A DNA stretch of 64,000 bases from Burkholderiales bacterium (GTDB lineage Bacteria > Pseudomonadota > Gammaproteobacteria > Burkholderiales > Burkholderiaceae_C), in assembly GCA_028868895.1 (NCBI GenBank), contig JAGWTP010000005.1, forward strand, positions 1-64,000, read 5' to 3'. Shown here piece by piece: positions 1,351-28,711 of the stretch; the first letter of the stretch is position 1; each line of letters opens with the position of its first letter. The position numbers were made by a program, and so were the translations under genes. The notes under the pieces were generated by a model. That model worked only from the letters and a program-made list of their open reading frames with translations. It had not been told where the DNA came from and did no database searches.

Positions 1351-1648
1351 GGTGCGGCGGGCGCCGTGCAGCGCCTCTGGGTTCGACACCGCGTCATCCT
1401 ACGCGGGTCCGCAGAAGCTTGCTGCGACGCAGCATCTGCGCCCATCCGCTGGCGGCGCGTCCGCCGCGGTGGTCGCGGCGCCGTGACACCGTTCGGTAGA
1501 ATGCGGTGTTTACAAGTCCAAACGGTCCTTCCGGAGGCGCGTTTTGCGCGAGGTCGGTACGGTGCGGGCGCCAACCGCGCGTTGGTCGCAGCGCCCGGTC
1601 GGCTTCGACGGGTGTGGTGCGCGAGGGGCTCCCTACAGGCGATTGAAC

Positions 1649-1921
1649 ATGACGACAGCCGACAACAGCCAGTTGCAGCGGGACGTGGCAGCCCTCCTGG
1701 TCGAGGCGCTCAACCTCGACGTGGCACCGGAATCCATCGACCCCGACGCGCCGCTGTACGGTGATGGCCTGGGCCTTGACTCGATCGACATCCTCGAGGT
1801 GGCGCTGGTCGTCTCCAAGCGCTATGGCTTCCAGCTGCGCTCGGACGACGACGACAACGTGCGCATCTTCGCCTCGCTGGCCAGCCTGACCGAGCATGTC
1901 GCTCGCCACCGGACCGTCTGA
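1649..1921 (+). CDS. Acyl carrier protein, first gene of the aryl-polyene cluster
   Basis: Phosphopantetheine site GLGLDSIDILE in a short acidic helical protein. ATG at 1649. Confidence 0.9.
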   Translation: MTTADNSQLQRDVAALLVEALNLDVAPESIDPDAPLYGDGLGLDSIDILEVALVVSKRYGFQLRSDDDDNVRIFASLASLTEHVARHRTV

Positions 1922-1940: not shown

Positions 1941-2621
1941 ATGGATGAGCGCGCCCGCCTGGGGCTGATCGCGGCGGTGCTGCTCGGCTACGCCGGGCTG
2001 TCGCACTACCTCACCGCGCAGGCCGCCGATTCGGCCTGGTCGCTGCTGGCCATCCTCGGGCCGATGGCGCTGCTCGCGCTGGTCGGTTTCTGGCGCAGCG
2101 GGCAGCGCTGGCTGGCCGTCGCACTGGCGTTGGGCATCGCCGCGCTCACCTGGCGGCTGCAACGCGGCGGCGACTTCGACCCCACCTGGCTCTACCTCGC
2201 GCAGCACGCCGGCATCCACGCCGCGCTGGGCGTGGCCTTCGGCCGCACGCTGCGCCCGGGCCGCCAGCCGCTGATCTCGGCGATGGCCGAGCGGGTCCAT
2301 CGCGGCCTGCCGCCCGGCATGGCTGAGTACACGCGCCGCGTGACGGCGGTCTGGACCGCCTACTTCTTCGGCATGGCGCTGACCTCGCTGGGGCTGTTTG
2401 CCTTCGCGCCGCTGGAGATCTGGTCGCTGTTCGCCAACGTGGTCACGCCGGTGGCGATGTGCGCTTTGTTCGTCGGCGAGTACATCCTGCGTTACCGCCT
2501 GCACCCGGAGTTCGAGCGCGTGAGCCTGGTCACCGCGATTCGTGCCTACTCGGAGCACCAGCAACGCCGTGAAGCGGCGGCGCCGGTCTCGGGTGAGGCG
2601 GGGCGCCGGAGCGAGCCATGA
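1941..2621 (+). CDS. Integral membrane protein associated with the aryl-polyene cluster
   Basis: Several hydrophobic segments; sits between the ACP and the acyl-ligase. Confidence 0.75.
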   Translation: MDERARLGLIAAVLLGYAGLSHYLTAQAADSAWSLLAILGPMALLALVGFWRSGQRWLAVALALGIAALTWRLQRGGDFDPTWLYLAQHAGIHAALGVAFGRTLRPGRQPLISAMAERVHRGLPPGMAEYTRRVTAVWTAYFFGMALTSLGLFAFAPLEIWSLFANVVTPVAMCALFVGEYILRYRLHPEFERVSLVTAIRAYSEHQQRREAAAPVSGEAGRRSEP

Positions 2622-4063
2622 TGGCCGGTGCCGCTACTGCCGCTATTGCCGCTGTTGCCGATCCCGATCTGACGCTGCTGCAGGGCGCGCCGCTCGACGC
2701 GCCGCTGGCCTGGCGGGGCGGGCTGCCGATCAGCCGGCAGGCCTACCTGGCCGACATCGCCGCACTGGCCCGGCGCCTGCCCGAGGCGCCCGCGGTGCTG
2801 GCCATGACCGGGGACCGCTACCGCTTCGCGGTGGCGCTCGGCGCTGTGGCGCTGCGCGGCGGCCACAGCCTGCTGCCACCCAACCACACGCCGGACATGC
2901 AGCGCCGCCTGGCCACGCTGTTCCCGGCCGCCTGCGCGCTGGTCGAGCCCGACGGCGGCGAGATGCTGCTGCCGACGCTGCCGTTCGTGGAAGCGTCTGG
3001 CCAGACGGAGGCGCCCGCTACCGAGCCGCCGCAGTTCGATGCCGATCAGGTGCTGGCCCAGGTGCTGACCTCCGGCTCCACCGGCATGCCGATGCCGCAC
3101 CCGAAGCGCTGGGGCGGCCTGGTCGAGAACATCGCTGCCGAGGCCGAGCGCATCGCCGAGTACCTGGGCCGGCCCGACCTGCAGGGTGTCACGCTGGTGG
3201 GCACGGTGCCGCCACACCACATGTACGGCTTCGAGTCCACGGTGCTGATCGCGATGCTGGGCGGCGCCGCCTTCGCCGCCGAGCGGCCCTTCTTCCCGGC
3301 CGACGTGGTGCAGGTGCTGGAGAGCGTGCCGCGCCCGCGCGTGCTGGTGACGACGCCCTTCCACCTCAAGACGCTGATCGAGTCCGACCTGGCTCTGCCG
3401 CCGGTGGACCTGACGGTCTGCGCCACCGCACCGCTGTCGCCGCAGCTGGCCGCGCGCGCCGAGGCGGCGCTGGCCGCGCCGCTGATGGAGATCTACGGCT
3501 GCACCGAGGCGGGGCAGGTGGCCACGCGCCTGACCACCCGCGGCCCGGAATGGCGGACTTTCCGTGGTCTGACCCTCAGCGGCGACGGCGAGGCCAGCAT
3601 CGTCCAGGGCGGCCATGTGCCGCAGCCGACCCCGCTGGCCGACGTGCTGGAGGTGCTGACCGAGGCGGATGACGCCCCGGCGACGCGCTTTCGCCTGCTC
3701 GGGCGCTCGAACGACCTGATCAACGTCGCCGGCAAGCGCAGCTCGCTGTCGCACCTGAATTTCCACCTCAACAGCATCGAGGGCGTGCAGGACGGCGCCT
3801 TCTGGGTACCGCCCGACGGCGAGGCGGTCGAGGACGTGGTGCGCCTGGTCGCCTTCGTCGTCGCCCCGGGCCTGGACCGGGCGGCGCTGCTGGCCGCGCT
3901 GCGCGAGCGGGTGGACCCCGCCTTCCTGCCGCGGCGCATCGTCGCGATGGAATCCCTGCCGCGCGACCCCACCGGCAAGCTGCCGGCCGGCCGGCTGGCG
4001 CAGCTGGCGGCCGAGCAGCTCGGCGCGCCGCGCGCTTCGAATTCGCCACGCGCGCCGGGCTGA
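2618..4063 (+). CDS. AMP-dependent acyl/aryl ligase (ANL superfamily)
   Basis: ANL motifs LTSGSTGMPMPHPK, EIYGCTEAGQVA and PRDPTGKLPAGRL. 4-bp overlap with the previous ORF. Confidence 0.85.
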   Translation: MMAGAATAAIAAVADPDLTLLQGAPLDAPLAWRGGLPISRQAYLADIAALARRLPEAPAVLAMTGDRYRFAVALGAVALRGGHSLLPPNHTPDMQRRLATLFPAACALVEPDGGEMLLPTLPFVEASGQTEAPATEPPQFDADQVLAQVLTSGSTGMPMPHPKRWGGLVENIAAEAERIAEYLGRPDLQGVTLVGTVPPHHMYGFESTVLIAMLGGAAFAAERPFFPADVVQVLESVPRPRVLVTTPFHLKTLIESDLALPPVDLTVCATAPLSPQLAARAEAALAAPLMEIYGCTEAGQVATRLTTRGPEWRTFRGLTLSGDGEASIVQGGHVPQPTPLADVLEVLTEADDAPATRFRLLGRSNDLINVAGKRSSLSHLNFHLNSIEGVQDGAFWVPPDGEAVEDVVRLVAFVVAPGLDRAALLAALRERVDPAFLPRRIVAMESLPRDPTGKLPAGRLAQLAAEQLGAPRASNSPRAPG

Positions 4064-4087: not shown

Positions 4088-4444
4088 ATGTCGATGTCCC
4101 TGCCTGGTCCTGTGCGCGCGCCGCTGCCCATCGCGGACGACCACCCCTCTTTCGCCGGCCATTTCCCGGGCCAGCCGATCCTGCCCGGCGTGGTGCTGCT
4201 GGCCGAGCTGATCGAGGCGATGCGCCGCGACGCCGCCACCGCCGCCTGGTTGGGCGCGGCACCTCAGTTGACGCAGGCCAAGTTCGTCACCGCGGTGCGA
4301 CCCGGCCAGGCGCTTGAGGCCGAGTGGATCCTGCCGGGCGCGGCGGGCGGCCGCGCGCGTTTCGAGATCCGCCTGCTCGCTGCCGACGGCAGCGCCGCGG
4401 GCCTGGCCGCCAGCGGTCAGATCCAGGCTGGAGCGCCGTCTTGA
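4088..4444 (+). CDS. FabA/FabZ-like 3-hydroxyacyl-ACP dehydratase
   Basis: Hot-dog motif HPSFAGHFPGQPILPGVVLLAELIEA. Confidence 0.85.
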   Translation: MSMSLPGPVRAPLPIADDHPSFAGHFPGQPILPGVVLLAELIEAMRRDAATAAWLGAAPQLTQAKFVTAVRPGQALEAEWILPGAAGGRARFEIRLLAADGSAAGLAASGQIQAGAPS

Positions 4445-5454
4445 GCGCCCCCGCCAGCGGCCAGGCCTGGACGCAGCACCGCGAGCGCAGCAACCTGGCG
4501 ACCCTGCGGCTGATGCGCTGGATCGCCACCGCGCTGGGCCGCCGCGTCGCGCGGGGCGTGCTCTGGCCGATTGCGCTGTACTTCCTGATCTTCGGCGGGG
4601 CAGCGGCGCGCGCCTCGCGCGACTACCTCGAACGCGTGCTCGGTCGTCCGCCGCGCTGGGTCGAACGTTATCGGCACATCCACCACTTCGCGGCCACCGT
4701 GCTCGACCGGGTCTACCTGCTGATGGGCCAGCTGCACCACTTCGACCTGCAGGTCAGGGGCATGGACGCCTTCGACGCGGCCCTGCTCGATGGCGAGGGC
4801 GTGCTGCTGATCGGCGCGCACCTGGGCAGTTTCGAGGCGCTGCGGGCCATCGGCCGGCAGCGCCACGGCCTGCGCATCGCGATGGTGATGTACGAGGACA
4901 ACGCCCGCCAGATCAACGCCACGCTGCAGGCCATCGCTCCGGAGGCCGCGCTGCACGTGATCCCGCTGGGCCGGCTGGAGGCGATGTTGCAGCTGCGCGA
5001 GTGGCTCGATGGGGGCGGAGTCGCCGGCATGCTCGGCGACCGCACGCTGCCGGGCAGCGCCCAGCGTTCGCACAGCCACGTGCTGGACTTCCTCGGCCGG
5101 CCGGCGCCCTTCTCGGACGGGCCCTTCCGCCTGGCCGCGCTGCTGCGCCGCCAGGTGCTGTTCATGACCGGGCTGTACCAGGGCCGCGCCGGTTACGAGC
5201 TGCGCTTCGTGCCGCTGGCCGACTTCCGCGAACGGCCGGCCAACGCTGCGGCGCAGGATGCGGCCATCCGCGCTGCGCTGGCGCGCTACGTCGCGCTGCT
5301 CGAAGGCCTGTGCCGCGAGTCGCCTTACAACTGGTTCAACTTCTTCGACTTCTGGGCCGGCGCCAAGGCCACCGGCCCGCAGGCCGTACCCCCGGCGGCT
5401 GCACCGGCTGCCCACGACCCGGACTCTTCCGCCCATGCCGCACGCCCTTCGTGA
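4441..5454 (+). CDS. LpxL/HtrB-like acyltransferase
   Basis: GVLLIGAHLGSFEALR and GMLGDRTLPG motifs. TTG start at 4441 gives a 4-bp overlap with the preceding stop. Confidence 0.8.
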   Translation: MSAPASGQAWTQHRERSNLATLRLMRWIATALGRRVARGVLWPIALYFLIFGGAAARASRDYLERVLGRPPRWVERYRHIHHFAATVLDRVYLLMGQLHHFDLQVRGMDAFDAALLDGEGVLLIGAHLGSFEALRAIGRQRHGLRIAMVMYEDNARQINATLQAIAPEAALHVIPLGRLEAMLQLREWLDGGGVAGMLGDRTLPGSAQRSHSHVLDFLGRPAPFSDGPFRLAALLRRQVLFMTGLYQGRAGYELRFVPLADFRERPANAAAQDAAIRAALARYVALLEGLCRESPYNWFNFFDFWAGAKATGPQAVPPAAAPAAHDPDSSAHAARPS

Positions 5455-6037
5455 CCCCCTCGCCATTCGCCTGTCCGGCCTGAAGCGCTGGCTGGTCGCT
5501 GCGCTGCTGCTCGCCGCCGGTGCCGCCCAGGCGCTCGAACTCGACAGCCTGATGAAGCTGCTCGCCCAGGTGAAGACCGGCGAGGCCACCTTCACCGAGC
5601 GCCGGGTCGTGACCCAGCTCGAGCGCACGCTGGAGTCCTCCGGGCGGCTGAGCTTTGCGGCGCCGGACAGCTTCGTGCGCGAGACGCTCAAGCCACGGCG
5701 TGAGCGCGTCGAAGTGAGCGGCAACACGCTCACCGTGACCCAGGGCTCGCGCACGCGCACGATGGCGCTGGACGCCAGCCCGGAGGCGGTGGCCATCGTC
5801 GAGGCCATCCGCGGCACGCTCACCGGCAACGGCGGGACGCTGCAGCGCCACTTCAACACCCAGGTCGAGGGCGACCTGGAGCGCTGGACGCTGGAGCTGG
5901 TGCCGCGCGACGCGCGCATGCGCGGCCAGGTCGCGCAGGTCCTGGTCAGCGGCCGCCAGGCCCTGCTGCGCGAGGTGAAGATCCTGATGACCGACGGCGA
6001 CACCTCGGTGATGCGCATCGAGGCGCTGCCGCGCTGA
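5435..6037 (+). CDS. LolA-like outer-membrane lipoprotein carrier homologue (aryl-polyene associated)
   Basis: Signal peptide (LVAALLLAAGAAQA) followed by LMKLLAQVKTGEATFTERR, a LolA-like pattern. Second LolA-like gene of the window. Confidence 0.75.
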   Translation: MPHALRDPLAIRLSGLKRWLVAALLLAAGAAQALELDSLMKLLAQVKTGEATFTERRVVTQLERTLESSGRLSFAAPDSFVRETLKPRRERVEVSGNTLTVTQGSRTRTMALDASPEAVAIVEAIRGTLTGNGGTLQRHFNTQVEGDLERWTLELVPRDARMRGQVAQVLVSGRQALLREVKILMTDGDTSVMRIEALPR

Positions 6038-6040: not shown

Positions 6041-8551
6041 ATGGCCGAGCGCGAACCTTTCGATCCGGGTCGGGACCAGGCCCAGACTTCCCGTCGTCCG
6101 CGCGCGGCGCTGTGGCTGCTCGGCCTGTGGCTGCTGCTGCTGGCTGCGGGTGGCTGGGTGGCGGCGCGGGCGCAGTACCGCGCCGACCTGTCGGCCTTTC
6201 TGCCGGCCGCGCCCAGCGCCGAGCAGCGCGTGCTGCTCGACCAGCTGCGCAGCGGCGTCACCACCCGCCTGCTGCTGATCGGCATCCGCGGCGGCCAGCC
6301 CGAGCAGCGCCAGCAGGCTTCGCGCGAGCTGGCGCAGGCGCTGCGCACAGGTGGGCCGCAGGCGGGGCACTTCGATGCGCTGCACAACGGCGAGGGCGAC
6401 AGCTGGAAGGAAACCGGCGAGTTCCTCTTCGCGCACCGCTACCTGCTCAGCCCGGCGGTGGACGCGCAGCGCTTCACCGTCGAAGGGCTGCGCGAGGCCT
6501 TCGACGAGACGGCCTCGGTGCTGGGCACCCCGGCCGGCAGCCTGATGAAGCCGCTGCTCTGGCGCGACCCCACCGGTGAGACGCTGCGCATGGCCGAGTC
6601 GATGATGAGCGCCAATTCGCCGCGCAGCGAGGGCGGCGTCTGGGTCTCGCGCAGCGAGCCACGCGCCCTGCTGCTGGGCACCACCCACGCCGACGGGGCC
6701 GACCTGGACGGCCAGGCCGCCGCCCAAGCGGCGGTGCGTGCGGCCTTCGCGCCCTGGGCGGCCCGGGGGCTGACGCTGGAACTGTCCGGCCCCGGTACCT
6801 TTGCGGTGCAGTCGCGCGCCAGCATCCAGCACGAGGTTGAGCGCCTCGCCTGGGCCGGGACGGCGATCATGCTCGGTCTGCTCTGGCTGGCCTTCGGCAC
6901 GCTGCGCCCGCTGGGCGTGGCCATGCTGCCGGTGGCCAGCGGCGTGCTGGCCGGCATCGTGGCGGTGGCGCTGGGCTTCGGCACGGTGCACGGCATGACG
7001 CTGGGCTTCGGCACCACGCTGATCGGCGAGGCGGTGGACTACGCGATCTACTTCCTGATCCAGTCGAATCCGCCGCCCGGGGTTGCCCGGGCGGGCGAGC
7101 CAGGCGAGCCGGGCGCGACCGGCCAGGGCTACCGCGCCTGGCTGCGCGAGCAGTGGCCGACGGTGCGCCTGGGGCTGTGGACCTCGGTGGCCGGCTTCGC
7201 GGCGCTGGTGGGCTCGGGCTTCCCGGGGCTGGCGCAGCTGGGCGTGTTCTCGATCGCCGGGCTGCTGGCCGCTGCGGCCACCACCCGCTGGGTGCTGCCG
7301 GTGCTGGCACCGGACGGCGCGCCCGGCCAGGGCTGGCTCGGTGCCCGCCGCCGCCTCGGCCGGATCGCACTGCGCGCCGCCCAGCGCCTGCCCGCTACGC
7401 GGGCCCTCTGGATCGGCCTGGTGGCGCTGGCGCTGGTCTGGCTGGTCTGGCAACCCACGCCCTGGCGCGCCAACCTGAGCTCGCTCAGCCCGGTCACCCC
7501 GGCGGCGCTGGCGCTGGACGCCTCGCTGCGCGCCGACCTCGGCGCCTCCGAATCCGGCTCGCTGGTCGCGGTGTCCGGCGCGGACGAGCAGACGGTGCTC
7601 GAACGCGCCGAAGCGGTCGGCCTGCGCCTGGATGCGCTGGTGGCCCGCGGCCTGTTGCGCGGTTACGACTCACCCGCCCGGCTGCTGCCCAGTGTGCGGC
7701 GCCAGCAGGCGCGGCTGGCGGCCTTGCCCGAGGCCGAGGTGTTGCGCCAGCGCGTCGCCCAGGCGGCGCAGGATGGTCCGCTGCGGGCCGACAAGCTGGT
7801 GCCCTTCGTCGAGGCGGTCGACGCGCAGCGCCACCTGACGCCGTTGACCGGCGCCAGCCTGGCCGGCACGCCCCTGGCCCCGCTGCTGCAGGCCCAGCTC
7901 GTGGCCGGCGCCGCGGCAACCACGAAGGAACCCGGCCGGCCCTGGACCGCGCTGTTGAGCCTGCAGTTTCCCGGCGACGACGCCCAGGCCCAGGCCGCCG
8001 CGCTGCAGGCGCTGCGCGCGGCGTTGGCCGACCTGCCCGAGGTGCGGGTGGTGCAGATCCAGTCCGAACTGAGCGCGCTGTACGCCCACTACCTCCGCGA
8101 GGCCCAGTGGCAGGCGGGGCTGGGCGCCCTGGCGGTCGTGCTGCTGCTCTTCTGGCACCTGCGCGCTGAGCGCCAGGCGCTGCGGCGCCTGGTCGCGCTG
8201 CTGCTGCCGCTGGCCGCGGCCGTGCTGCTGGTGATGGGCGCTCTGGCGGCGGCCGGGGTGGCGCTGGGGGTGCTGCACCTGGTCGGCTTCCTGCTCGTCG
8301 TGGCGGTGGGGTCGAACTACGCGCTGTTCTTCGACCACCTTGCGCAGGCAGGCAGCGGGCCGGTCGATGACAGCGAGACGCTGGCCTCGCTGCTGCTGGC
8401 CAACTTGACCACGGTGGCCTCCTTCGGGCTGCTGGCGACCTCGGGCGTGGCGGTCCTGGCGGCGATCGGGCAGGTGGTCGCCCCGGGCGCCGCGCTGGCG
8501 CTGATCCTGTCGGCGGCCTTTCAGTCCCGCCGGGGAGTCGCGCGTAGCTGA
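6041..8551 (+). CDS. MMPL/RND-family exporter
   Basis: About 836 aa with two sets of TM helices and RND-like motifs (GFGTTLIGEAVDYAIYFLIQ; LVVAVGSNYALFFDHLAQ). Confidence 0.85.
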   Translation: MAEREPFDPGRDQAQTSRRPRAALWLLGLWLLLLAAGGWVAARAQYRADLSAFLPAAPSAEQRVLLDQLRSGVTTRLLLIGIRGGQPEQRQQASRELAQALRTGGPQAGHFDALHNGEGDSWKETGEFLFAHRYLLSPAVDAQRFTVEGLREAFDETASVLGTPAGSLMKPLLWRDPTGETLRMAESMMSANSPRSEGGVWVSRSEPRALLLGTTHADGADLDGQAAAQAAVRAAFAPWAARGLTLELSGPGTFAVQSRASIQHEVERLAWAGTAIMLGLLWLAFGTLRPLGVAMLPVASGVLAGIVAVALGFGTVHGMTLGFGTTLIGEAVDYAIYFLIQSNPPPGVARAGEPGEPGATGQGYRAWLREQWPTVRLGLWTSVAGFAALVGSGFPGLAQLGVFSIAGLLAAAATTRWVLPVLAPDGAPGQGWLGARRRLGRIALRAAQRLPATRALWIGLVALALVWLVWQPTPWRANLSSLSPVTPAALALDASLRADLGASESGSLVAVSGADEQTVLERAEAVGLRLDALVARGLLRGYDSPARLLPSVRRQQARLAALPEAEVLRQRVAQAAQDGPLRADKLVPFVEAVDAQRHLTPLTGASLAGTPLAPLLQAQLVAGAAATTKEPGRPWTALLSLQFPGDDAQAQAAALQALRAALADLPEVRVVQIQSELSALYAHYLREAQWQAGLGALAVVLLLFWHLRAERQALRRLVALLLPLAAAVLLVMGALAAAGVALGVLHLVGFLLVVAVGSNYALFFDHLAQAGSGPVDDSETLASLLLANLTTVASFGLLATSGVAVLAAIGQVVAPGAALALILSAAFQSRRGVARS

Positions 8552-8730
8552 AGCACGGCCAACACCTTGTGGGAGAATCCACACAGGTCGTGATGCAGGG
8601 GGCTAGGCTGCCAGCGTCGCGCGCCCAGTGTTTTCCGTTCGAGTCCGGCCATCCATTGCCGCCCCACATCCGTGCCCGTCGCCTCCGCTGTCAACCGCGC
8701 GGCGGGCCGCCTGTCGCAGACGCCATCGCC

Positions 8731-9663
8731 GTGACTTCCCCGTTGCCTGCCGCGCCCCGACCGCCCTGGCCGATGCCGCGCTTCGTCCGCGCGACGCTGG
8801 CGCTGCACGGGCTGCTGCTGCTGGGTCTGCTCGTCTGGCCAGCGCAGTGGCCATGGCTGCTGGCGCTGCTGGTGGCCAACCACGCGCTGATCACCGGGCT
8901 CGGCCTCTGGCCGCGCTCAACCTGGCTGGGGTCGAACCTGCGCCGCCTGCCCGCCGCCTCCAGCGCGCGCGGCGAAGTGGCGCTGACCATCGACGACGGC
9001 CCGGACCCGGCGCTGACGCCGCGGGTGCTCGACCTGCTCGATGCGGCCGGCGTGAAGGCCACCTTCTTCTGCATCGGTGAGCGGGTGCAGCGCCACCCCG
9101 AGCTGGCGCGCGAGATCCTGGCCCGCGGCCACGAACTGCAAAGCCACAGCCAGCGGCACCGCCATAACTTTTCGCTGCTCGGCCCGCGTGGCTGTGCGAA
9201 GGAGCTGGAAGCCGCACAGCGCAGCTTTGAGCAGGTCACCGGGGTCACGCCGCGGCTGTTTCGCGCCCCGGCCGGGCTGCGCAACGCCTTTCTCGCGCCG
9301 GTCCTGCACCGGCTGGGCCTGCAGCTGGTGAGCTGGACGGCGCGCGGCTTCGACACGCGCGAGCGCGACCCGGCGCGCGTGCTGCATCGCCTGACGCGAC
9401 AGTTGCGTGCCGGCGACATCCTGCTGCTGCACGACAGCAACGCTGCGCTGACCCTGTCCGGCGAACCGGTGGTGCTGGCGGTGCTGCCCGAGCTGCTGCG
9501 CCGCCTGCGCACGGCCGGCCTGCACCCGGTGCGCCTGGGTGACGCACTGGCACTGGCGCCGGACGCGGCCGCGGCCAAGCCGCTGGCTGCCCCGGCGCTG
9601 CGGCGGCCGGCCTCGCCCGGTGCGATCGCCTCGAAGTTCAGCCCTCCTTCCAGCACGGCATGA
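8731..9663 (+). CDS. Membrane-anchored NodB-family polysaccharide deacetylase
   Basis: NodB motif TIDDGPDPALTP, metal motif HSQRH, N-terminal hydrophobic helices. GTG at 8731 is a plausible start; the ORF is open from 8569. Confidence 0.85.
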   Translation: MTSPLPAAPRPPWPMPRFVRATLALHGLLLLGLLVWPAQWPWLLALLVANHALITGLGLWPRSTWLGSNLRRLPAASSARGEVALTIDDGPDPALTPRVLDLLDAAGVKATFFCIGERVQRHPELAREILARGHELQSHSQRHRHNFSLLGPRGCAKELEAAQRSFEQVTGVTPRLFRAPAGLRNAFLAPVLHRLGLQLVSWTARGFDTRERDPARVLHRLTRQLRAGDILLLHDSNAALTLSGEPVVLAVLPELLRRLRTAGLHPVRLGDALALAPDAAAAKPLAAPALRRPASPGAIASKFSPPSSTA

Positions 9664-10427
9664 GTCGCTCCCGTGATCCCGACTGGCGGCGCATCGTCGA
9701 TGCCGCCAGCGCACCGTACCGCCGCGCCGGGCGCTTCGCCTGGCACTTTGCCCGCGGCAAGCTGGGCATGGACCCGGTGTTCCGCCACCTGCTGAGCGTC
9801 GGGCTGATCCTGCCCGGCGCGCGGGTGATCGACATCGGCTGCGGCCAGGGCCTGCTCGCCAGCCTGCTGCGCTGCGCCGACCAGGCCGCCGTCGCGGGTC
9901 GCTGGCCGCAGGGTTGGGCGCCGGCGCCCAAGGGAGCGAGCTACACCGGCATCGAGCTGATGCCGCGCGATGTCGAACGCGCCCGCGCCGCGGTGGGCGA
10001 GGCGGGCACCTTCGTCTGCGGCGACATGCGCCAGGTGCCTCTGCCGCCCTGCGACACGGTGGTGATCCTCGATGTGCTGCACTACGCCACGCTGGCCGAG
10101 CAGGACGCGCTGTTGGTGCGGGTGCGCGACGCCCTCAGCCCGGGTGGCCGGCTGCTGCTGCGCGTGGGCGATGCCGATGCGCGGCGCGGCTTCGTCATCA
10201 GCCAGTGGGTTGACCGGGTGGTCACCCACGTGCGCGGCCACCGCGTGCCGCCCACCTACGGCCGCCCGCTCTCGGCCTGGCGCGAGACGCTGCGGCGCCT
10301 GGGCTTTGCCGTCGAGCCCCGGCCGATGAGCGAGGGCACGCCCTTCGCCAATGTGCTGCTGGTGGCAGAGCGTCGGCCCGAGCGACCCCCTGAGGGCTTG
10401 GCCGACCCCGCGAAGGCAGGAAGATGA
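9660..10427 (+). CDS. Class I SAM-dependent methyltransferase
   Basis: VIDIGCGQGLLASLL motif I. 4-bp ATGA overlaps on both sides. Confidence 0.85.
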   Translation: MSRSRDPDWRRIVDAASAPYRRAGRFAWHFARGKLGMDPVFRHLLSVGLILPGARVIDIGCGQGLLASLLRCADQAAVAGRWPQGWAPAPKGASYTGIELMPRDVERARAAVGEAGTFVCGDMRQVPLPPCDTVVILDVLHYATLAEQDALLVRVRDALSPGGRLLLRVGDADARRGFVISQWVDRVVTHVRGHRVPPTYGRPLSAWRETLRRLGFAVEPRPMSEGTPFANVLLVAERRPERPPEGLADPAKAGR

Positions 10428-11614
10428 TGAAACCGCTGGCGATCACCCACCTCACCCTGACCACCGCGCTGGGCCGGGGTCTGGACGAGCACCTGCAGGC
10501 CCTGGAGGCAGGCCGCAGCGGCCTGGCGCCCTGCCGCTTCATGGACGTGACGCTGCCCGGCTGGGTCGGCGAGGTCGCGGGCGTCGACGACGTCGCGCTG
10601 CCCGCCAGCCTGGCGGCGGCGCACGACTGCCGCAACAACCGCCTCGCCTGGCTGGGCCTGCAGGCCGACGGCCTGATCGACGCGGTGACCCAGGCGCGCC
10701 AGCGCTGGGGCGCACGGCGCATCGCGGTGCTGCTGGGCACCAGCACCTCAGGCATCCTGAGCACCGAGCTGGCCTACCGCCGCCGCGGGCCGGACGGCGC
10801 GCTGCCGACCGACTTCCACTACGCGCAGACCCACAACACCTTCTCGCTGGCCGGCTTCGTCGCTGAGGCGCTGGGGCTGCAAGGCCCGGCCTGGGTGGTG
10901 TCCACCGCCTGTTCGTCCAGCGCCAAGGTCTTCGCCTCGGCGCAGCGGCTGATCGACGCCGGCTGGGTCGATGCGGCGCTGGTGGGCGGCGTGGACAGCC
11001 TGTGCCTGACCACGCTCTACGGCTTCAACTCGCTGGAGCTCTTCGCCGGCGAGATCTGCCGGCCCTGGGACGCTCAGCGCAAGGGCCTGTCGATCGGCGA
11101 GGCGGCCGCTTTCGCGCTGTTGCAGCGCGAGCCGGTGGATGCGCCCGCCGCCTGGCTGCTCGGCAGCGGCGAGAGCAACGACGGCCACCACATGAGCTCG
11201 CCGCACCCCGAGGGCGTCGGCGCGATCGCGGCGATGCGCCAGGCGCTGGCCGAGGCCGGGCTGCAGCCCGAGCAGATCGACTACATCAACCTGCATGGCA
11301 CCGCCACGCCCAACAACGACGCCGCCGAGGACCGCGCGGTGTTCAGCGTCTTCGGCGACCGGGTGCCGGCCAGCTCCACCAAGGGCGCCACCGGCCACAC
11401 GCTGGGCGCCGCGGGCGGGGTCGAGGCGGCGATCTCGGTGCTGGCGCTGCGCCATGGGCTGATGCCCGGCGGGCTCAACCTGCGCGAGCGCGACCCCGCG
11501 CTGCACATTCAGTACCTCACTGAGAACCGCCGTGCGCCGCTGCGCCGCGTGCTGAGCAATTCCTTCGGCTTTGGCGGCTCGAACGCCAGCCTGATCTTCG
11601 GAGCCGCGCCATGA
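10424..11614 (+). CDS. Beta-ketoacyl-ACP synthase (KAS I/II type)
   Basis: Active-site STACSSSAK, plus INLHGTATPNND and KGATGHTLGAAGG. Confidence 0.93.
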   Translation: MMKPLAITHLTLTTALGRGLDEHLQALEAGRSGLAPCRFMDVTLPGWVGEVAGVDDVALPASLAAAHDCRNNRLAWLGLQADGLIDAVTQARQRWGARRIAVLLGTSTSGILSTELAYRRRGPDGALPTDFHYAQTHNTFSLAGFVAEALGLQGPAWVVSTACSSSAKVFASAQRLIDAGWVDAALVGGVDSLCLTTLYGFNSLELFAGEICRPWDAQRKGLSIGEAAAFALLQREPVDAPAAWLLGSGESNDGHHMSSPHPEGVGAIAAMRQALAEAGLQPEQIDYINLHGTATPNNDAAEDRAVFSVFGDRVPASSTKGATGHTLGAAGGVEAAISVLALRHGLMPGGLNLRERDPALHIQYLTENRRAPLRRVLSNSFGFGGSNASLIFGAAP

Positions 11615-12456
11615 AGGCGGTCGAGTTGTATGTCCAGGGCGTCGGGCTGGTCGGCCCGGGCCTGCCCGGCTGGGCCGCCGCACAGCCGCTGCTGGTCGGC
11701 CGGCAGAACTACGAACCGGCCGCGACGGTCGTGCCCGCGCCGATGCGCCTGCCGCCGGCCGAGCGCCGCCGCGCCGGCACGGCGATCAAGATCGCCATCG
11801 CGGTGGCCGATGCCGCCTGCAGCGCTGCCGGCGTCGACCCCGCCACGCTGGCCACGGTCTTCACCTCCTCCAGCGGCGACGGCGGCAACTGCCACACGCT
11901 GTGCGAGATGCTGGCTGGCGGCGACCGGCTGGTGTCGCCCACGCGCTTCACCAACTCGGTGCACAACGCCGCGGCCGGCTACTGGCACATCGCGGTCGGC
12001 AGCCAGGCGCCGTCGACCAGCCTCTGCGCCTTCGATGGCAGCTGGGGCGCCGGCTTGATCGAGGCGGCCACGCTGGCGGCGGCCAGCGGCCGGCCGGTGC
12101 TGCTGGTGGCCAGCGATGCGCCCTATCCCGAACCGCTGCATGGCACGCGGCCCTTGCCCGACTGCTGCGGCGTCGCCCTGGTGCTGACGCCTGAGGCGCG
12201 ACCCGGCCACCTGGCGAAGCTCGCGTTGACGCTGGAGGCGCCCCAGCCGGCCAGCGGCTGTGCCGATGCCGCGCTGGACGCGCTGCGTCAGGCGATCCCC
12301 GCCGCGCAGGCGCTGCCGCTGCTGAGCGCGTTGGCACGCGGCGAGGCCGCCGCGCTGCGCTTCGACGCCCGCCAGGCGCTCAGCGTGGCGGTGGAGGTCA
12401 CGCCGGGGTCCACGGCCCTGACGGGCGCTGATCCCGTCGTCGGAGCTGCGGCGTGA
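11611..12456 (+). CDS. Beta-ketoacyl synthase-like / chain-length-factor-like protein
   Basis: Thiolase-fold text (TVFTSSSGDGGNCHTLCEML, TNSVHNAAAGYWHIA) without the canonical ACSSS nucleophile. 4-bp overlaps with neighbours. Confidence 0.8.
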   Translation: MKAVELYVQGVGLVGPGLPGWAAAQPLLVGRQNYEPAATVVPAPMRLPPAERRRAGTAIKIAIAVADAACSAAGVDPATLATVFTSSSGDGGNCHTLCEMLAGGDRLVSPTRFTNSVHNAAAGYWHIAVGSQAPSTSLCAFDGSWGAGLIEAATLAAASGRPVLLVASDAPYPEPLHGTRPLPDCCGVALVLTPEARPGHLAKLALTLEAPQPASGCADAALDALRQAIPAAQALPLLSALARGEAAALRFDARQALSVAVEVTPGSTALTGADPVVGAAA

Positions 12457-12908
12457 GCGTTGGCGGCGCGCCGCTGGGCCCGGCCGAGATCGCGGCGCTG
12501 ATCCCGCACGCGGGCCGCATGTGCCTGCTCTCGCGCTGCCTGGGCTGGGACGCCCAGCGCATCCGTTGCCAGGCCGACAGCCACCGCGACGCCGACAACC
12601 CCCTGCGCAGCGCCAGCGGCCTGCTGGCGCCGGTGGCCATCGAGTACGCCGCGCAGGCGAGGGCGCTGCACGGCGGCCTGCTCGCCCGCGCAGCGGGGGG
12701 GGCGGCGAGCCCGGGCTTTCTCGCCAGCGCCCGCCAGGTTGAGCTGCTGAGCGAGCGGCTCGACGACCTGGCCGGCCCGCTGGACATCGAGGCTGAGCGC
12801 CAGGCCGGCGACGAGCGCCAGATCCTCTACGCCTTCACCGTCTCGCACGCCGGCCGGCCGCTGGTGCGCGGGCGCGCCGCGGTGGTGCTGAACACACCGC
12901 TGGGCTGA
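12453..12908 (+). CDS. 3-hydroxyacyl-ACP dehydratase-like protein
   Basis: IPHAGRMCLLSRCLGWD and VAIEYAAQARALHGG; position in the fatty-acid-like cassette. Confidence 0.75.
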   Translation: MSVGGAPLGPAEIAALIPHAGRMCLLSRCLGWDAQRIRCQADSHRDADNPLRSASGLLAPVAIEYAAQARALHGGLLARAAGGAASPGFLASARQVELLSERLDDLAGPLDIEAERQAGDERQILYAFTVSHAGRPLVRGRAAVVLNTPLG

Positions 12909-12934
12909 GCGCTTTTCTTTTCTTGCTGCGAGCC

Positions 12935-13699
12935 ATGCCCGACACTTCTGCGACTTCAGTCTCTCCGGGCCCGCTGGCCGGCCGCCGCGCTCTGGTGACC
13001 GGCGCCAGCGGCGACCTGGGCTCGGCCATCGCCCGCCGCCTGGCGCGCGAGGGCGCCGAGGTGATCGTGCACGCCAACAGCCGCCTGGCGCAGGCCGAGG
13101 CGCTGGCCGCGGCAATTCGCGCCGAGGGCGGCCGGGCGCAGGCCCTGGCTTTCGACCTCACCGACCGTGAGGCCACGCAGGCGGCGCTGGCGCAGCTGAT
13201 CGAGAGCGGGCCGGTGCAGATCCTGATCAACAACGCCGGGTTGCACGACGACGCGGTTTTCCCCGGCATGCGCGGCGAGCAGTGGGACCGCGTCATGGCG
13301 GTGAACCTGGACGGCTTCTTCAACGTCACCCAGCCGCTGATGCTGCCGATGATCCGCACCCGCTGGGGCCGCGTGATCAGCATCTCCTCGGTGGCGGCGG
13401 TGGCGGGCAACCGCGGCCAGGTCAACTACGCCGCGGCCAAGGGCGCGCTGCACAGCGCGACCAAGGCGCTGTCGATGGAGGTGGCCAGCCGCGGCATCAC
13501 CGTCAACGCGGTGGCGCCGGGCATCATTGCCTCGGCGATGGCGGACGCCGCCTTCGACGCTGCCGCGGTGGCCCAGCTCGTGCCGGCCAAGCGCGCCGGC
13601 ACGCCCGAGGAGGTGGCCGCGCTGGTGGCCTTCCTGGCCGGGCCCGAGGCCGGCTACATCACCGGTCAGGTGCTTTCGATCAACGGCGGGATGATCTGA
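12935..13699 (+). CDS. 3-oxoacyl-ACP reductase (FabG-like SDR)
   Basis: TGASGDLGSAIARRLA, NNAG, SSVAAVAGNRGQVNYAAAKG and C-terminal GQVLSINGGMI. Confidence 0.93.
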   Translation: MPDTSATSVSPGPLAGRRALVTGASGDLGSAIARRLAREGAEVIVHANSRLAQAEALAAAIRAEGGRAQALAFDLTDREATQAALAQLIESGPVQILINNAGLHDDAVFPGMRGEQWDRVMAVNLDGFFNVTQPLMLPMIRTRWGRVISISSVAAVAGNRGQVNYAAAKGALHSATKALSMEVASRGITVNAVAPGIIASAMADAAFDAAAVAQLVPAKRAGTPEEVAALVAFLAGPEAGYITGQVLSINGGMI

Positions 13700-13727: not shown

Positions 13728-14762
13728 TCAGGGGCGCGGGGTCCGCGCGTCGGGCCAGGGTTCGGCGGGCCGCGCGGCGCGGCCGGTGAAATTGCGGCCG
13801 TCGGGCGTGAAGGCGCCGGGGCCGCTGAAGTCGGCGGCCTCGTAGCCGCGGTCGATGTCCAGCCCGACCAGGCGCCAGTCGTGCACCGGCAGGCCGGGGA
13901 TCGGGCGGCGCAGCCGCTCGTGAAAGCGCGTGGGCCACATCACGCCGTGAGCGCGCCGGTGCTCCCAGACGTCGACTTCGGCCACCGCGCCCTGGGTCGA
14001 GGCCAGGCCTTCGAGCGAGAAGCGCACCCGGCGCATCAGCCGCTCCTCGCGGTCGATGAAGAGGATCAGCTGGTCCACGGCGGCGAAACCCAGCCCGGGC
14101 GCCAGGCGAACCGCCAGGGCGTCGCAGAGGCGACCGTCGACGGCCTCGGGCTCGTCCAGACGCATCGCCAGGGTCTGGCCGGCGGCCTCGCGGTCGGCCA
14201 GCGCGAGCGGGCCGAGCAGAAAGAGCAGGTAGCCGTCCACCACCAGCGCGGCGGCGTCACGCGCCGCCTCGACCGTGCTCGGCTGGCCGTTGTAGGCCAC
14301 CGCGACGTCTCCGACACCGGTCGCGGAGCCCGTGCCGGTCGCCCTGTTTGCGCCGATTGCGCCGCGGCGCCGGATCACCTGCTTGTGCCCCGCCGGACCG
14401 GTGTGCAGCTGGGCGACCAGGCCTGCGCCGGGCAGCACGCGCTCCTCGGAACGGCCGCGAAAGCCCGCATCGACCAGCTCGGGCTGCAGGCGCGGCACCA
14501 GCGCACGCCATTCGCCCTCGAAGGTCAAGTTCAGGTCGTGGATGCGCCGCCAGGCCGCCAGGCCGTGCGCGGCACAGGCGGCGTCGAAGACCCGGCGCGC
14601 CGCTGCGTCGCCGTCGCTCGCGGTGCCGTCCCCAGCGATGCCGGGCAACGGGCTGGCACAGCCGCTGGCCAGTAGCGGCAGCACCGTGCTCAGGCTGGCC
14701 GCGGCGAGCAGCCGGCGGCGCGGGATCGGGCGGGCGGGGGTGTCGGCGTCGGCGTTGGGCAT
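13728..14762 (-). CDS. Putative Tat-exported lipoprotein of unknown function
   Basis: N-terminus IPRRRLLAAASLSTVLPLLASGC has a twin-arginine-like motif and a lipobox-like LASGC. No family recognised. Confidence 0.7.
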   Translation of the reverse strand: MPNADADTPARPIPRRRLLAAASLSTVLPLLASGCASPLPGIAGDGTASDGDAAARRVFDAACAAHGLAAWRRIHDLNLTFEGEWRALVPRLQPELVDAGFRGRSEERVLPGAGLVAQLHTGPAGHKQVIRRRGAIGANRATGTGSATGVGDVAVAYNGQPSTVEAARDAAALVVDGYLLFLLGPLALADREAAGQTLAMRLDEPEAVDGRLCDALAVRLAPGLGFAAVDQLILFIDREERLMRRVRFSLEGLASTQGAVAEVDVWEHRRAHGVMWPTRFHERLRRPIPGLPVHDWRLVGLDIDRGYEAADFSGPGAFTPDGRNFTGRAARPAEPWPDARTPRP

Positions 14763-14775: not shown

Positions 14776-15681
14776 TCAGGCGCGGCGCGGGCGGCTGCGC
14801 GGCAGGTACTGGAAGGGCGCGTGGCGCAGCAGCCGCTGGCGCAGCAGCAGCGGTAGGCGCAGCAGGAACTCGATCACCAGGCGGGTGTGCATCCAGGTCA
14901 GCAGCGCGTTGTCGCGGCCGTAGTGAAAGTGCGAGACGCCGCCTTCTTCGGCGCTGAGGTACTTGACCGGCGCCGCGCGGTTGATGGGCGCGACGCCCGC
15001 CCAGGCCAGGCGCACGACGGCCTCGGTGTCGAAGTCGAAGCGGCGCATCCAGGGCTGGTGCCGCATCACGCCGATCAGCTCGGCGATCGGGTAGACGCGA
15101 AAGCCGTAGAGCGAGTCGCCGATGCCCGCGCCCAGCGTCTCCAGGTCGGTCCAGCCGTTGGAGATGCGTCGCCCGCGCACGCGCAGCAGCGGCGCGGAGG
15201 CGTCGAAGACCGGCTGGCCCAGCACCATCGCGTCGATGTGCGTCAGCGAGGACTCCATGAAGGTGCGAATCAGGTCGGCCGGGTGCTGGCCGTCGGAGTC
15301 CATCGTCAGCGCATGGGTGTAGCCCTGGGCGCGAGCGGCCTCCAGGGCGGCCAGCACCGCGGCGCCCTTGCCCTGGTTCTGCGGCAGCACGATCAGGCGC
15401 AGGTCCGGATCATCGGCGGCGAGCTGGGCCAGGCCTTCCGCGGTCCCGTCGGTGGAGCCGTCGACCACCACCCAGACCGGCGCCCACTGCGCGCGCGCGG
15501 CGCGCACCGTGTCGTAGACCTTCGGGCCGGTGTTGTAGCTGGGGATGATGACCGTGTGGGTGGCCGAGCGCACGCTGGCTCGGGCGGCGACCGGACTCGG
15601 CGCGGGGGGGGGGCTGGCGGGGCCGGCGGGGGACGTGGCGTTCAAGGTCGTCGGGTTGCTTGGGGTGTCGGCGGGGCTCAC
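14776..15681 (-). CDS. Family 2 glycosyltransferase
   Basis: TVIIPSYNTGPKVYDTV, VVDGSTDGTAEGL, LTMDSDGQHPADLI. GTG at 15681 overlaps the upstream stop by 4 bp. Confidence 0.85.
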   Translation of the reverse strand: MSPADTPSNPTTLNATSPAGPASPPPAPSPVAARASVRSATHTVIIPSYNTGPKVYDTVRAARAQWAPVWVVVDGSTDGTAEGLAQLAADDPDLRLIVLPQNQGKGAAVLAALEAARAQGYTHALTMDSDGQHPADLIRTFMESSLTHIDAMVLGQPVFDASAPLLRVRGRRISNGWTDLETLGAGIGDSLYGFRVYPIAELIGVMRHQPWMRRFDFDTEAVVRLAWAGVAPINRAAPVKYLSAEEGGVSHFHYGRDNALLTWMHTRLVIEFLLRLPLLLRQRLLRHAPFQYLPRSRPRRA

Positions 15682-16448
15682 GCGGCCAGCTCCTGGCGGA
15701 AATAGGATTCGAGGCGACCGAGCAGGGCCTCGTGGTCGGCTTCGGGTTCGAAGCGCTCGCCCAGGCGCAGCCGGTACCGGATCGGGATGGGCGGCAGGCG
15801 CCAGATCGGCCAGCCCTTGGCGAGGTAGGGCGATTCGGTCTCGATGATGACGGTCTGGATCGGCGCCTTGGCGCGGTGGGCGATCAGCGTGATCCCGGGG
15901 CGAAACGGGTTGGGGCCGCGCTGACCGGGCTCGGTGCGGGTGCCCTCGGGGAAGAGGATCAGGTGCGCTCCGCCGTGCAGGGCCTCCACCGCGGCGCGAA
16001 TCATCTGCAGCGGCGAGTCGTTGGCGATGTAACGCGCCAGCTTGGCGCCCGCGCCGAGGAAGACGTTGTTCAGCAGCGAGGCCTTCATGATGCACACGCT
16101 GCGCGGCAGCCGCGCGCCGATCAGCAGGGCGTCGGCCATGCAGGGGTGGTTGGCGGCGATGATCAGGCCGCGCGGGTCCTCATTCAGGGCGTCCAGCGCG
16201 CTGGCATCGATGCGCATCAGGCCTGAGGCGCGCGCCAGCACCCAGTACAGCCGGTAGCCGTAGGCGATGCCGGCACGGCCGAGGGTGGCACCGCGATCGT
16301 CCGTCACGACGAAGTGCAGCAGCCAGGCGCCGAAGTTGAAAAGCAGCGAGATCAGCCCCAGCACCATGACCAGCAGCACCAGCCAGAGACCGAGCACAGG
16401 CCGCAGCAGCAGCGGGGGCGGGCGCACATCGGCGAGAGAGGGGATCAC
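15678..16448 (-). CDS. PlsC-like 1-acyl-glycerol-3-phosphate-type acyltransferase
   Basis: IIAANHPCMADALL and LFPEGTRTEPGQ motifs. GTG start at 16448 is preferred over the longer ORF. Confidence 0.85.
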   Translation of the reverse strand: MIPSLADVRPPPLLLRPVLGLWLVLLVMVLGLISLLFNFGAWLLHFVVTDDRGATLGRAGIAYGYRLYWVLARASGLMRIDASALDALNEDPRGLIIAANHPCMADALLIGARLPRSVCIMKASLLNNVFLGAGAKLARYIANDSPLQMIRAAVEALHGGAHLILFPEGTRTEPGQRGPNPFRPGITLIAHRAKAPIQTVIIETESPYLAKGWPIWRLPPIPIRYRLRLGERFEPEADHEALLGRLESYFRQELAA

Positions 16449-16555: not shown

Positions 16556-17455
16556 TCAGGGCAATTCGGTCACGCGCACCATCTGGCTCGATTGGGCGAA
16601 AACCCAGGACAGGCCGAGGCCGGCCGACCAGCTGCGTCGGCGCTCGACCAGCGGGCTGTCGGCAAAGACGGCGCTGCCCAGGTCGTCGTGGCGAAGGAAG
16701 GCGCCCATCCACACCGGGCCGACCCGGTGCGATACGGCGGCCAGTGCCTTCCAGCCGGCGCGACCCGCGCCGGCCTCATAGGCGGGGCGGGCGGCCGTGG
16801 CCTCGTCGGCGGCCACGCCGTAGAAGTGCTGGTGGTAGCGATGCGACCCCCACAACAGGCCGCCCTGCAGGCCGACGTTCCAGCCCCGAGGCGCCGCCAG
16901 GTCCAGGTTCAGCACCGGTTCGAACACGGTGCCGATGTTGCGCGCCGAGCGTTGCACCGTCATGACAGCGCGCAGCGGCAGGCGCAGCTCGACCTTGCCC
17001 AGGGTCACGCCCGCGCTGTTGAGGTCGCGCCACAGCGTCAGGTTCAGGCTGGGGCCGATCTCCACCGTCGCCGGAAGGTCGTCCATGCCGGCGCGGGTGG
17101 GGTTGTTGCGGCTGGCGGCCGGGGCACTGCCGCCCACGCTGACGTCGATCTCGGCCAACTGGGTGTCGAGCAGCACCGCGCGGGTGCCTTCGCGGTCGGC
17201 CCGCAGCCATTTGCCGCGGTACACCACATAGGGCAGCGGCAGCCAGAGCGTGCGGCGGTGTGCCGAGCCGCGGTAGTCGGCCATGTTCAGCGCGGCTGCG
17301 CCCAGACCGGCTTCCCAGAGCGGGCGCTCGACGCCGGCGGGGAAGGACGATGGGGCGGGCGATGGGGCAGGCGTGGCTTCCGTCTGCGCTGCGGCGACCC
17401 CGGTCAGCATGGCCGCAATCAACGTGGCCGCGATCAGCGCCCCGCCCCGTGCCAT
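16556..17455 (-). CDS. MipA/OmpV-family outer-membrane protein
   Basis: Signal peptide then EAGLGAAALNMADYRGSAHRRTLWLPLPYVVYRG; alternating beta-strand pattern. The longer ORF to 18592 is mostly out-of-frame antisense/alternate-frame text. Confidence 0.75.
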   Translation of the reverse strand: MARGGALIAATLIAAMLTGVAAAQTEATPAPSPAPSSFPAGVERPLWEAGLGAAALNMADYRGSAHRRTLWLPLPYVVYRGKWLRADREGTRAVLLDTQLAEIDVSVGGSAPAASRNNPTRAGMDDLPATVEIGPSLNLTLWRDLNSAGVTLGKVELRLPLRAVMTVQRSARNIGTVFEPVLNLDLAAPRGWNVGLQGGLLWGSHRYHQHFYGVAADEATAARPAYEAGAGRAGWKALAAVSHRVGPVWMGAFLRHDDLGSAVFADSPLVERRRSWSAGLGLSWVFAQSSQMVRVTELP

Positions 17456-17493
17456 GAGCCGAGGCGGCGGGCGACCTCCCTGGCAGACGACGC

Positions 17494-18834
17494 TCACGTG
17501 CCGCTCACCCCGACGTCCTGGATGTTGACCTGCCGTTGTCGCCAGGCGCGCCAGGTACGGCCGAAGTTCTGCAGCGAGACCAGGTAGTACAGGCCCTTGA
17601 GGATGCGCAGCGGGCCCCACAGCGGCGTGTTGCCGTAGATGTCGCCGGCCAGCAGCGACAGCAGCGCCTCCTTGACCCGGAAGGGGTTCTGCGGGCTCAT
17701 GAAGAACTCGCGCATCGTCGGGTTGGTGACGCGGAAGATGAACCAGCTGAATTCCTTCGGCCCAAAGGCCATCTTCTTCTCGAATTCGCGGCGCGCAGAA
17801 GCCGCCTCGCGCGGGCGGTCCAGCGTGGCCTCGATCAGCGGCACTGCGGCCACCGCGCTTTGCATCGCCAGCAGCACCCCCGAGGAGAACACCGGGTCGA
17901 TGAAGGCGTAGGCATCGCCCAGCATCAGGAAGCGCTCGCCGCTGCCCTTGGAGCTGCTGTACGAATAGTTGCCGGTGGCGTGCACCTCGTCGCCGACGAG
18001 TACCGCACCTTCGAGGCGCCGCGCCAGCTCGGGGCACAGCGCGATCGTGTCGCCGAAGAACTCCGGCAGCGGCTTGGTGCGCGACTTCAGGTAGTACGGC
18101 CAGCACACCGCGCCGACGCTGGTGGTGCCGTCGGCCAGCGGGATGACCCAGAACCAGCCGTGGTCGAACCACAGGATCGTGATGTTGCCTTCGAGCTTGC
18201 CTTCGAGCCGCTGTGCGCCGGTGTAGTGGCCGTACAGCGCCGAGCTGTCGTGGCGCCGGTTCTTCTGCTTGCACTTGAACTGGTTGGCCAGCAGCGTGTC
18301 GCGGCCCGACGCATCGACGACGAAGCGCGTGCGCCAGGTCTGGCGCACGGCGTCGCCGCCCGGCGTGTCGACGTCGACCTGGACCGTCGCGCCCTCGGCG
18401 TCGAACGCGACTTCGCGCACGCGGTGGCCTTCGAGCGCACGCGCGCCCTTGGCGGCGGCGTTGCGGAACAGGATCTCGTCGAGTTCCGAGCGCCGCACCT
18501 GCCAGGCGTACGGCATGTGCTTGTCCCAGGCGTCGGCGAACTCGACGTAGCCGCGCTGTGCATGGTCGGGCGAGACGAACTCGACCCCCCACTTGCGCAG
18601 CCCGATGCGCTCGACCTGCTCGCGCACGCCGAGCCGGTCGAACAGGGCCGCGTTGGCCGGCAGCAGCGACTCGCCGATGTGAAAACGCGGGTGATGGGCC
18701 TTTTCCAGCATCGCCACGTCACGGCCGCGCTCGGCCAGCAACGCGCTGATCGTGGACCCGGCCGGGCCGCCGCCGACGACCAGCACGTCGCACCGAAATT
18801 CGGTTGGAGAAACGACAGTGGCAGGTGGGTGCAT
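17494..18834 (-). CDS. Flavin-dependent halogenase-like oxidoreductase
   Basis: N-terminal VVGGGPAGST (GxGxxG), FHIGESLLP, and halogenase-type GWFWVIP (WxWxIP). Confidence 0.85.
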   Translation of the reverse strand: MHPPATVVSPTEFRCDVLVVGGGPAGSTISALLAERGRDVAMLEKAHHPRFHIGESLLPANAALFDRLGVREQVERIGLRKWGVEFVSPDHAQRGYVEFADAWDKHMPYAWQVRRSELDEILFRNAAAKGARALEGHRVREVAFDAEGATVQVDVDTPGGDAVRQTWRTRFVVDASGRDTLLANQFKCKQKNRRHDSSALYGHYTGAQRLEGKLEGNITILWFDHGWFWVIPLADGTTSVGAVCWPYYLKSRTKPLPEFFGDTIALCPELARRLEGAVLVGDEVHATGNYSYSSSKGSGERFLMLGDAYAFIDPVFSSGVLLAMQSAVAAVPLIEATLDRPREAASARREFEKKMAFGPKEFSWFIFRVTNPTMREFFMSPQNPFRVKEALLSLLAGDIYGNTPLWGPLRILKGLYYLVSLQNFGRTWRAWRQRQVNIQDVGVSGT

Positions 18835-26108: not shown

Positions 26109-26179
26109 GCGCACGGGCCTGATTGCCGATCCCGTACGAGCGCTCTCAACAACGCAGGCTGCGAACCACGAACCCGACC

Positions 26180-26560
26180 ATGCGACTGCCCGACATGCTC
26201 ATCATCCTGGCCGGCGTGCTGCTCAACGCGGTGGCGCAGCTGCTGCTGAAGGCCGGCGCCGGCTCGGTCGGCCCGATCGCCGGCTGGAGCGCGCTGCGCG
26301 GCGTGGCCGGTGCGCTGGCGGTCCACCCCGCGGTGCTCGGCGGCCTGGCCTGCTACGTGGTCAGCGTGGTGGTCTGGATCGTCGCGCTGTCGCGCGTCGA
26401 CGTGAGCGTGGCCTACCCGATGCTGTCGATCGGCTACGTCGTCAACGCGCTGCTCGCGATGTGGCTGTTCGGCGAGGCAGTCTCGCTGCAGCGCTGGCTC
26501 GGCATCGCGGTGATCCTCATCGGCGTGACGATCGTCGCGCGCTCGGGGGCGCACACGTGA
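26180..26560 (+). CDS. ArnE/ArnF-like small multidrug-resistance-family flippase subunit
   Basis: About 126 aa with four TM-like segments between arnT and arnB; EamA/SMR-like pattern (NAVAQLLLKAGAG). Confidence 0.8.
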   Translation: MRLPDMLIILAGVLLNAVAQLLLKAGAGSVGPIAGWSALRGVAGALAVHPAVLGGLACYVVSVVVWIVALSRVDVSVAYPMLSIGYVVNALLAMWLFGEAVSLQRWLGIAVILIGVTIVARSGAHT

Positions 26561-27693: not shown

Positions 27694-27715
27694 CACGCCG
27701 CTCGGGCACACGCAC

Positions 27716-28711
27716 ATGCAACTCCACGAAGCCATCGACCTGCGCTCGGGCCAGCCGGCGAGCGCCACCGCCGCCGACGCGGTGGCGTTGAGCGTCGTGA
27801 TCCCGGTCTACAACGAAGAGCCCGGGCTGGGCGCGCTGTTCGACCGGCTCTATCCGGCGCTCGACGCACTCGGGCTGCGCTACGAGGTCGTGTTCATCAA
27901 CGACGGCAGCCGCGACCGCTCGGCGCAGCTGCTCGCCGAGCAGTTCGAGCGCCGCCCCGACGTGACGCGCGTGATCCTGTTCAACGGCAACTTCGGCCAG
28001 CACCGCGCAATCCTGGCCGGCTTCGAGCACTGCCGTGGCGAGCGCGTGGTCACGCTCGACGCCGACCTGCAGAACCCGCCCGAAGACATCAAGAACCTGC
28101 TCGCCGCGATGGACGACGGCCACGACTACGTCGGCTCGATCCGGCGCCGGCGGCGCGACTCGGTCTGGCGGCGCTGGGCCAGCCGCAGCATGAACCGGCT
28201 GCGCGCCAGCATCACCCGCATCGAGATGACCGACCAGGGCTGCATGATGCGCGCCTACAGCCGCAACATCGTCCAGCTCATCAACCAGTGCGGCGAGATG
28301 AACACCTTCATTCCGGCGCTGGCCTACCAGTTCGCGCGCCGGCCCACCGAGATCGAGGTCGGCCACGAAGAGCGCCACGCCGGCGAGTCCAAGTATTCGC
28401 TGTACAGCCTGATCCGCCTGAACTTCGACCTCGTCACCGGCTTCTCGGTGGTGCCGCTGCAGTGGTTCTCGATGCTCGGCATGGCGGTGTCATTGGGGGC
28501 CGCCGCGCTGGTGGTGCTGCTGGTGGCGCGGCGCCTGATCATCGGCCCCGAAGAAGGCGGCCTGTTCACGCTGTTCGCGATCGCCTTCCTGCTGATCGGG
28601 CTGGCGCTGTTCGGCATCGGCCTGCTCGGCGAATACGTCGGCCGCATCTTCCAGGAAGTGCGCTCGCGCCCGCGCTACGTGATCAGCGCCATCCTGGAAC
28701 GCAAACCGTGA
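27716..28711 (+). CDS. arnC: Undecaprenyl-phosphate L-Ara4FN transferase
   Basis: [49 protein letters not shown] plus two C-terminal TM helices. Confidence 0.92.

Follow-up and report, generated by a model that had tools for sequence, protein, structure and literature searches.

What does a flavin-dependent halogenase-like gene at the border of a pigment cluster do to the pigment? Pigments of the aryl polyene (APE) type are widespread in bacteria; in the literature covered, those recorded as halogenated come from Xanthomonas and its close kin. We addressed this question for a gene in a 64,000-nucleotide stretch of a Burkholderiales genome (hereafter, the window). The gene is real and intact, belongs to the flavin-dependent halogenase family, and accompanies clusters for yellow APE pigments in proteobacteria.

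The open reading frame (17494-18834, minus strand) has an ATG start and 446 codons, with its stop codon inside these coordinates, and its GC3 of 0.91 is in line with that of the genes of the window. The gene stands at the end of the minus-strand arm of an APE cluster of the xanthomonadin/arcuflavin type, which is complete and composed as follows.

1544..1921, plus strand: acyl carrier protein (PF00550; true start probably later)
2618..4063, plus strand: AMP-ligase (starter activation)
4088..4444, plus strand: FabA-like dehydratase
4324..5454, plus strand: lipid A-type acyltransferase (PF03279; true start and end uncertain)
5258..6037, plus strand: LolA-like protein
6041..8551, plus strand: MMPL-type exporter
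8569..9663, plus strand: polysaccharide deacetylase
9660..10427, plus strand: methyltransferase
10424..11614, plus strand: beta-ketoacyl-ACP synthase
11611..12456, plus strand: chain-length-factor-like protein (PF13723)
12453..12908, plus strand: dehydratase-like protein (position and conservation only; no Pfam match)
12923..13699, plus strand: FabG-type ketoreductase
13728..14762, minus strand: lipoprotein-like hypothetical protein (no family match; kept in three related clusters)
14776..15681, minus strand: family 2 glycosyltransferase (PF00535; start codon inferred)
15678..16448, minus strand: phospholipid/glycerol-type acyltransferase (PF01553; start codon inferred)
16556..17455, minus strand: MipA-type outer-membrane protein (PF06629, 4.7e-39; start codon inferred)
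17494..18834, minus strand: halogenase-like flavoprotein, 446 aa (motifs, Pfam, PDB, fold)

The plus-strand arm also contains a hypothetical gene between those for the acyl carrier protein and the AMP-ligase. An earlier note had placed the halogenase-like gene at the edge of the polyene cluster, and the next genes outward are indeed livF and livG, part of an operon for a branched-chain amino-acid transporter. Elsewhere in the window, positions 26032-31718 hold a DegT-type aminotransferase (an assignment that was tested) together with what are probably a glycosyltransferase and a deacetylase; the three may form a lipid A modification operon.

The protein carries the three motifs named in the earlier note, namely the GxGxxG FAD-binding motif (residues 21-26), FHIGESLLP (residues 51-59, with GESLLP at 54-59) and WxWxIP in the form WFWVIP (residues 227-232), with no change at the motif residues among the 68 members of its clade. 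It also contains FIDPVFSSG (residues 311-319), a form of the Fx.Px.Sx.G motif counted among those of FADH2-dependent halogenases (PMC7336383), and the halogenase catalytic-lysine motif at K81, which the earlier note did not mention. The family membership claimed there was confirmed by Pfam (Trp_halogenase, 2.3e-27; FAD_binding_3, 1.2e-19) and by sequence matches in the PDB (RadH, 6e-50; ChlB4, 2e-48; CndH, 5e-48; PltA, 6e-40). The best solved relatives were RadH, ChlB4, CndH, 8zop and Mpy16 (6e-50 to 1e-47), with CmlS and PltA next. The Pfam and PDB E-values and the conservation across the 68 clade members ruled out chance motif matches. In comparisons with three relatives dN/dS was 0.30-0.37, and it was 0.47 when the two halogenase-like copies of the host genome were compared; the protein is under constraint.

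Narrower assignments were rejected. The CmlS equivalog (NCBIfam NF033113; E 1.9e-54) scored 185 bits against a curated cut-off of 900, and the QhpG monooxygenase equivalog (NCBIfam NF049967; E 3.1e-46) 158 bits against a curated cut-off of 240. A tryptophan halogenase in the narrow sense was likewise set aside, since only the broad Pfam family matched and the best solved relatives were RadH, ChlB4 and CndH.

The active site of the window protein and its clade members was aligned with those of seven solved halogenases. K81 aligned with the lysine that precedes a conserved glycine in the seven enzymes. K81, W227, W229, I231, P232, F311, P314, S317 and G319 were invariant in 68/68 clade members, the window's included; this set contains some near-duplicates, and a filtered set (n=35; 41-78% identity to the window protein) retained all these motif residues too. 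Compared with all seven references, the window protein and its clade have a one-residue deletion directly before the lysine, and in the window protein N289 stands where all seven have Asp. We take this Asp to be the CmlS residue that is covalently bound to FAD; the numbering agrees, and we treat the correspondence as a lead only.

The predicted fold matches those of solved halogenases. The AlphaFold model (pLDDT 91.3, pTM 0.91) had as its top Foldseek matches FasV 8zop, 3nix, RadH, CndH, ChlB4, Mpy16 and PltA, with E values of 4e-34 to 1e-30 against solved halogenases. The APE clade in the tree (46 rows) had an SH-aLRT support of 100 and contained no characterised enzyme. PltA/ChlB4/Mpy16, CndH, RadH and CmlS fell outside it, with weak and long deep branches; the tree speaks neither for halogenation nor against it. 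The 3nix-like flavoproteins formed a clade separate from the APE clade and carry the same motifs. The caution on non-halogenating relatives voiced in the earlier note is justified. Other Gammaproteobacteria encode, beside KS, KR and MMPL genes, 3nix-like and related flavoproteins of the halogenase fold that have the lysine and every motif (L083, L085, L087, L090-L097).

A class-wide search of 369 genomes yielded an ortholog group with 43-84% identity and E < 1e-104; the remainder had 39% identity or less. The relatives found by protein search were mostly Burkholderiales, the closest being a Rhizobacter MAG (78%), and most ortholog loci with enough sequence contained further APE genes. Among 250 genomes of the order, the halogenase-like gene occurred in 29, the APE chain-length factor in 44, and both in 28 (Fisher p about 1e-24, shared ancestry uncorrected). 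Where the two genes shared a contig, they lay within 22 kb of each other. The halogenase-like gene was missing from 16/44 APE genomes. Together, these counts fit a tailoring gene that is optional yet linked to the APE pathway. One ortholog (L069, G179:C286) contained a single in-frame TAG and is either decayed or affected by a sequencing error.

A XanB2-type chorismatase (3-hydroxybenzoate synthase) was encoded directly downstream on the same strand in 45 of the 67 halogenase loci with enough sequence, and XanB2 also directly follows the halogenase-like gene in same-genus relatives. In the window, the MipA gene starts 38 bases past the halogenase stop (17455-17494) with no XanB2 between them, and neither profile nor protein search found a chorismatase/XanB2 in the host genome. 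The profile search matched in the genomes of five relatives; it gave no match in three genomes, those of L011, L015 and L016, in which the halogenase-like gene is retained. A search of the host genome for an alternative source of the starter unit turned up a single aromatic ammonia-lyase, which scored as HutH.

The same assembly (G000) contains a second APE cluster on contig C152 (L077, L078), with the gene set of the window minus a methyltransferase match. Its halogenase copy, truncated where the contig stops, is 84% identical to the window protein over 319 aa and is followed by genes for MipA, the acyltransferase and the glycosyltransferase and by core genes (47-81% identity to those of the window). 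XanB2 is absent from this cluster, as it is from that of the window. C152 probably belongs to the same genome, because valS occurs nowhere else in the assembly than on this contig and the tetranucleotide composition is alike; contamination as the source of the second cluster was thought unlikely on these grounds, although a binning mixture is conceivable. Between the two arms of this cluster (L077:3556-8606) lie an ECF sigma/NrsF pair and a group of MbnB/TglH/ChrH (DUF692), DUF2063 and DoxX genes. The host genome has further KS and chain-length-factor pairs on C105 (L116:1-3065) and C40 (L117:143-2199), with 50% and 41% identity, respectively; the C105 pair is followed by a gene whose 553-aa product matches halogenases weakly.

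The best explanation, which we put at a probability of roughly 55%, is that the protein is an FADH2-dependent tailoring enzyme of the halogenase type that acts on the aryl head group of a xanthomonadin/arcuflavin-type APE (ArcA/XanB1 type). A separate flavin reductase would supply FADH2, which would react with O2 to give C4a-hydroperoxyflavin; attack of a halide on this intermediate would yield HOX, and K81 would relay or activate HOX towards the substrate. This would brominate or chlorinate the head group of the starter or polyene, an electron-rich hydroxyaryl or methoxyaryl unit; we infer the chemistry, the substrate and the halide. The suggestion in the earlier note that the pigment may be halogenated stands in part: it gains from the invariant lysine, the predicted fold and the link to APE clusters, and it is weakened by the position in a clade of its own without a characterised halogenase and by arcuflavin, the one pigment of known chemistry from a cluster with the positional counterpart of the gene (PMC3949708). 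Arcuflavin is nonbrominated, an outcome that the earlier note named as refuting, though here it comes from a relative only.

The chief rival, which we consider unlikely, is a non-halogenating flavoprotein with a halogenase fold, such as an aromatic hydroxylase, a desaturase or another oxidoreductase acting on the aryl head or the polyene, in which the motifs would be kept for FAD and peroxide chemistry. The deletion before the lysine, the Asp-to-Asn change at 289, the absence of characterised halogenases from the clade, and the presence of 3nix, annotated as a flavoprotein/dehydrogenase, among the closest folds, with its kin beside KS, KR and MMPL genes, all favour this reading. It also gains from the Azoarcus sp. 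BH72 arcuflavin cluster, which includes arcA and gives a nonbrominated aryl-heptaene, C41H52O4 (PMC3949708), although the growth medium alone may explain the missing halogen. Against it stand the lysine and both halogenase motifs, invariant in 68/68 members, and the distribution of brominated pigments: Xanthomonas has a halogenase gene in its clusters and its xanthomonadins contain 0-2 Br, whereas Lysobacter enzymogenes is without such a gene and its pigment without a bromine pattern (Wang et al., PMC3691225). That the whole APE-linked halogenase-fold clade performs another oxidative step on aryl polyenes, despite every textbook motif and the lysine, seems to us rather doubtful.

A true halogenase might instead act away from the aryl head, on the polyene chain or elsewhere in the finished pigment, which we regard as improbable. 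One bromine of xanthomonadin I sits on the polyene chain. The compound is dibrominated (PMC3949708), and the gene is kept where XanB2 is lost and hence is not bound to the 3-hydroxybenzoate step; the frequent direct adjacency of XanB2 (45/67 loci) points instead to the aryl starter as the substrate. Finally, a relic or a gene unused in this host would fit the lack of a XanB2 homologue, the usual partner, and with it of the usual starter supply, but is very improbable given the intact frame, the complete motifs, a dN/dS well below 1, the retention of the gene in the second cluster (where the copy runs off the contig end) and in three other XanB2-less genomes.

If the clade halogenates, as in the reading that we prefer, many Burkholderiales of soil and fresh water should have brominated or chlorinated pigments. 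Otherwise, the lysine together with the standard motifs does not suffice to identify a halogenase, and 'halogenase' annotations beside APE clusters would be misleading. Relatives in culture that have the gene, namely Rhizobacter sp. Root404, Variovorax and Sphaerotilus, make the question accessible.

Among solved enzymes, the carrier-protein-linked pyrrole/aryl halogenases PltA, Mpy16 and ChlB4 share the motifs, the lysine and the predicted fold with the window protein (TM-score to the query 0.78-0.82) but differ in their 29-33% identity, separate clade, extra loops and an additional residue ahead of the lysine. CndH, RadH and CmlS, the best or near-best solved relatives (28-38% identity), have the motifs and the lysine in common with it; they lie on separate long branches, have Asp at the N289 position and do not share the one-residue deletion of the window protein. 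The 3nix-type flavoproteins share the fold and motifs with the window protein, to which they are about 27% identical, but form a separate clade (support 100); their relatives adjoin KS, KR and MMPL genes.

Reports on arcA and on the Xanthomonas halogenase mean that the pairing of such a gene with an APE cluster was already known; a literature search for xanB1 knockouts, for FasV and for more recent studies of arcuflavin was without yield. In further selected genomes, with Variovorax in the figure, the gene has also been described as conserved close to the ketosynthase pair (PMC3691225). In Azoarcus sp. BH72, azo3921 (arcA, 'halogenase') is accompanied by arcB (XanB2), arcC (MipA protein), arcD (acyltransferase) and arcE (glycosyltransferase), and the pathway accepts 4-fluoro-3-hydroxybenzoate (Schoner et al., PMC3949708). 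The window gene has the same place beside the MipA, acyltransferase and glycosyltransferase genes and is, as judged by gene order only, the positional counterpart of arcA, with the difference that arcB lies between the halogenase and MipA genes in Azoarcus and the window has no such gene. In Xanthomonas, whose APE cluster gives a brominated product (PMC3691225), a halogenase is reported together with XanB1, a 'putative reductase/halogenase' adjoining XanB2 (PMC3838355). One relative (L100), 44% identical to the window protein, has the order acyl carrier protein, halogenase-like protein, chorismatase and AMP-ligase, as for Xanthomonas XanB1/XanB2. Judged by gene order, the window gene is probably also the positional counterpart of xanB1.
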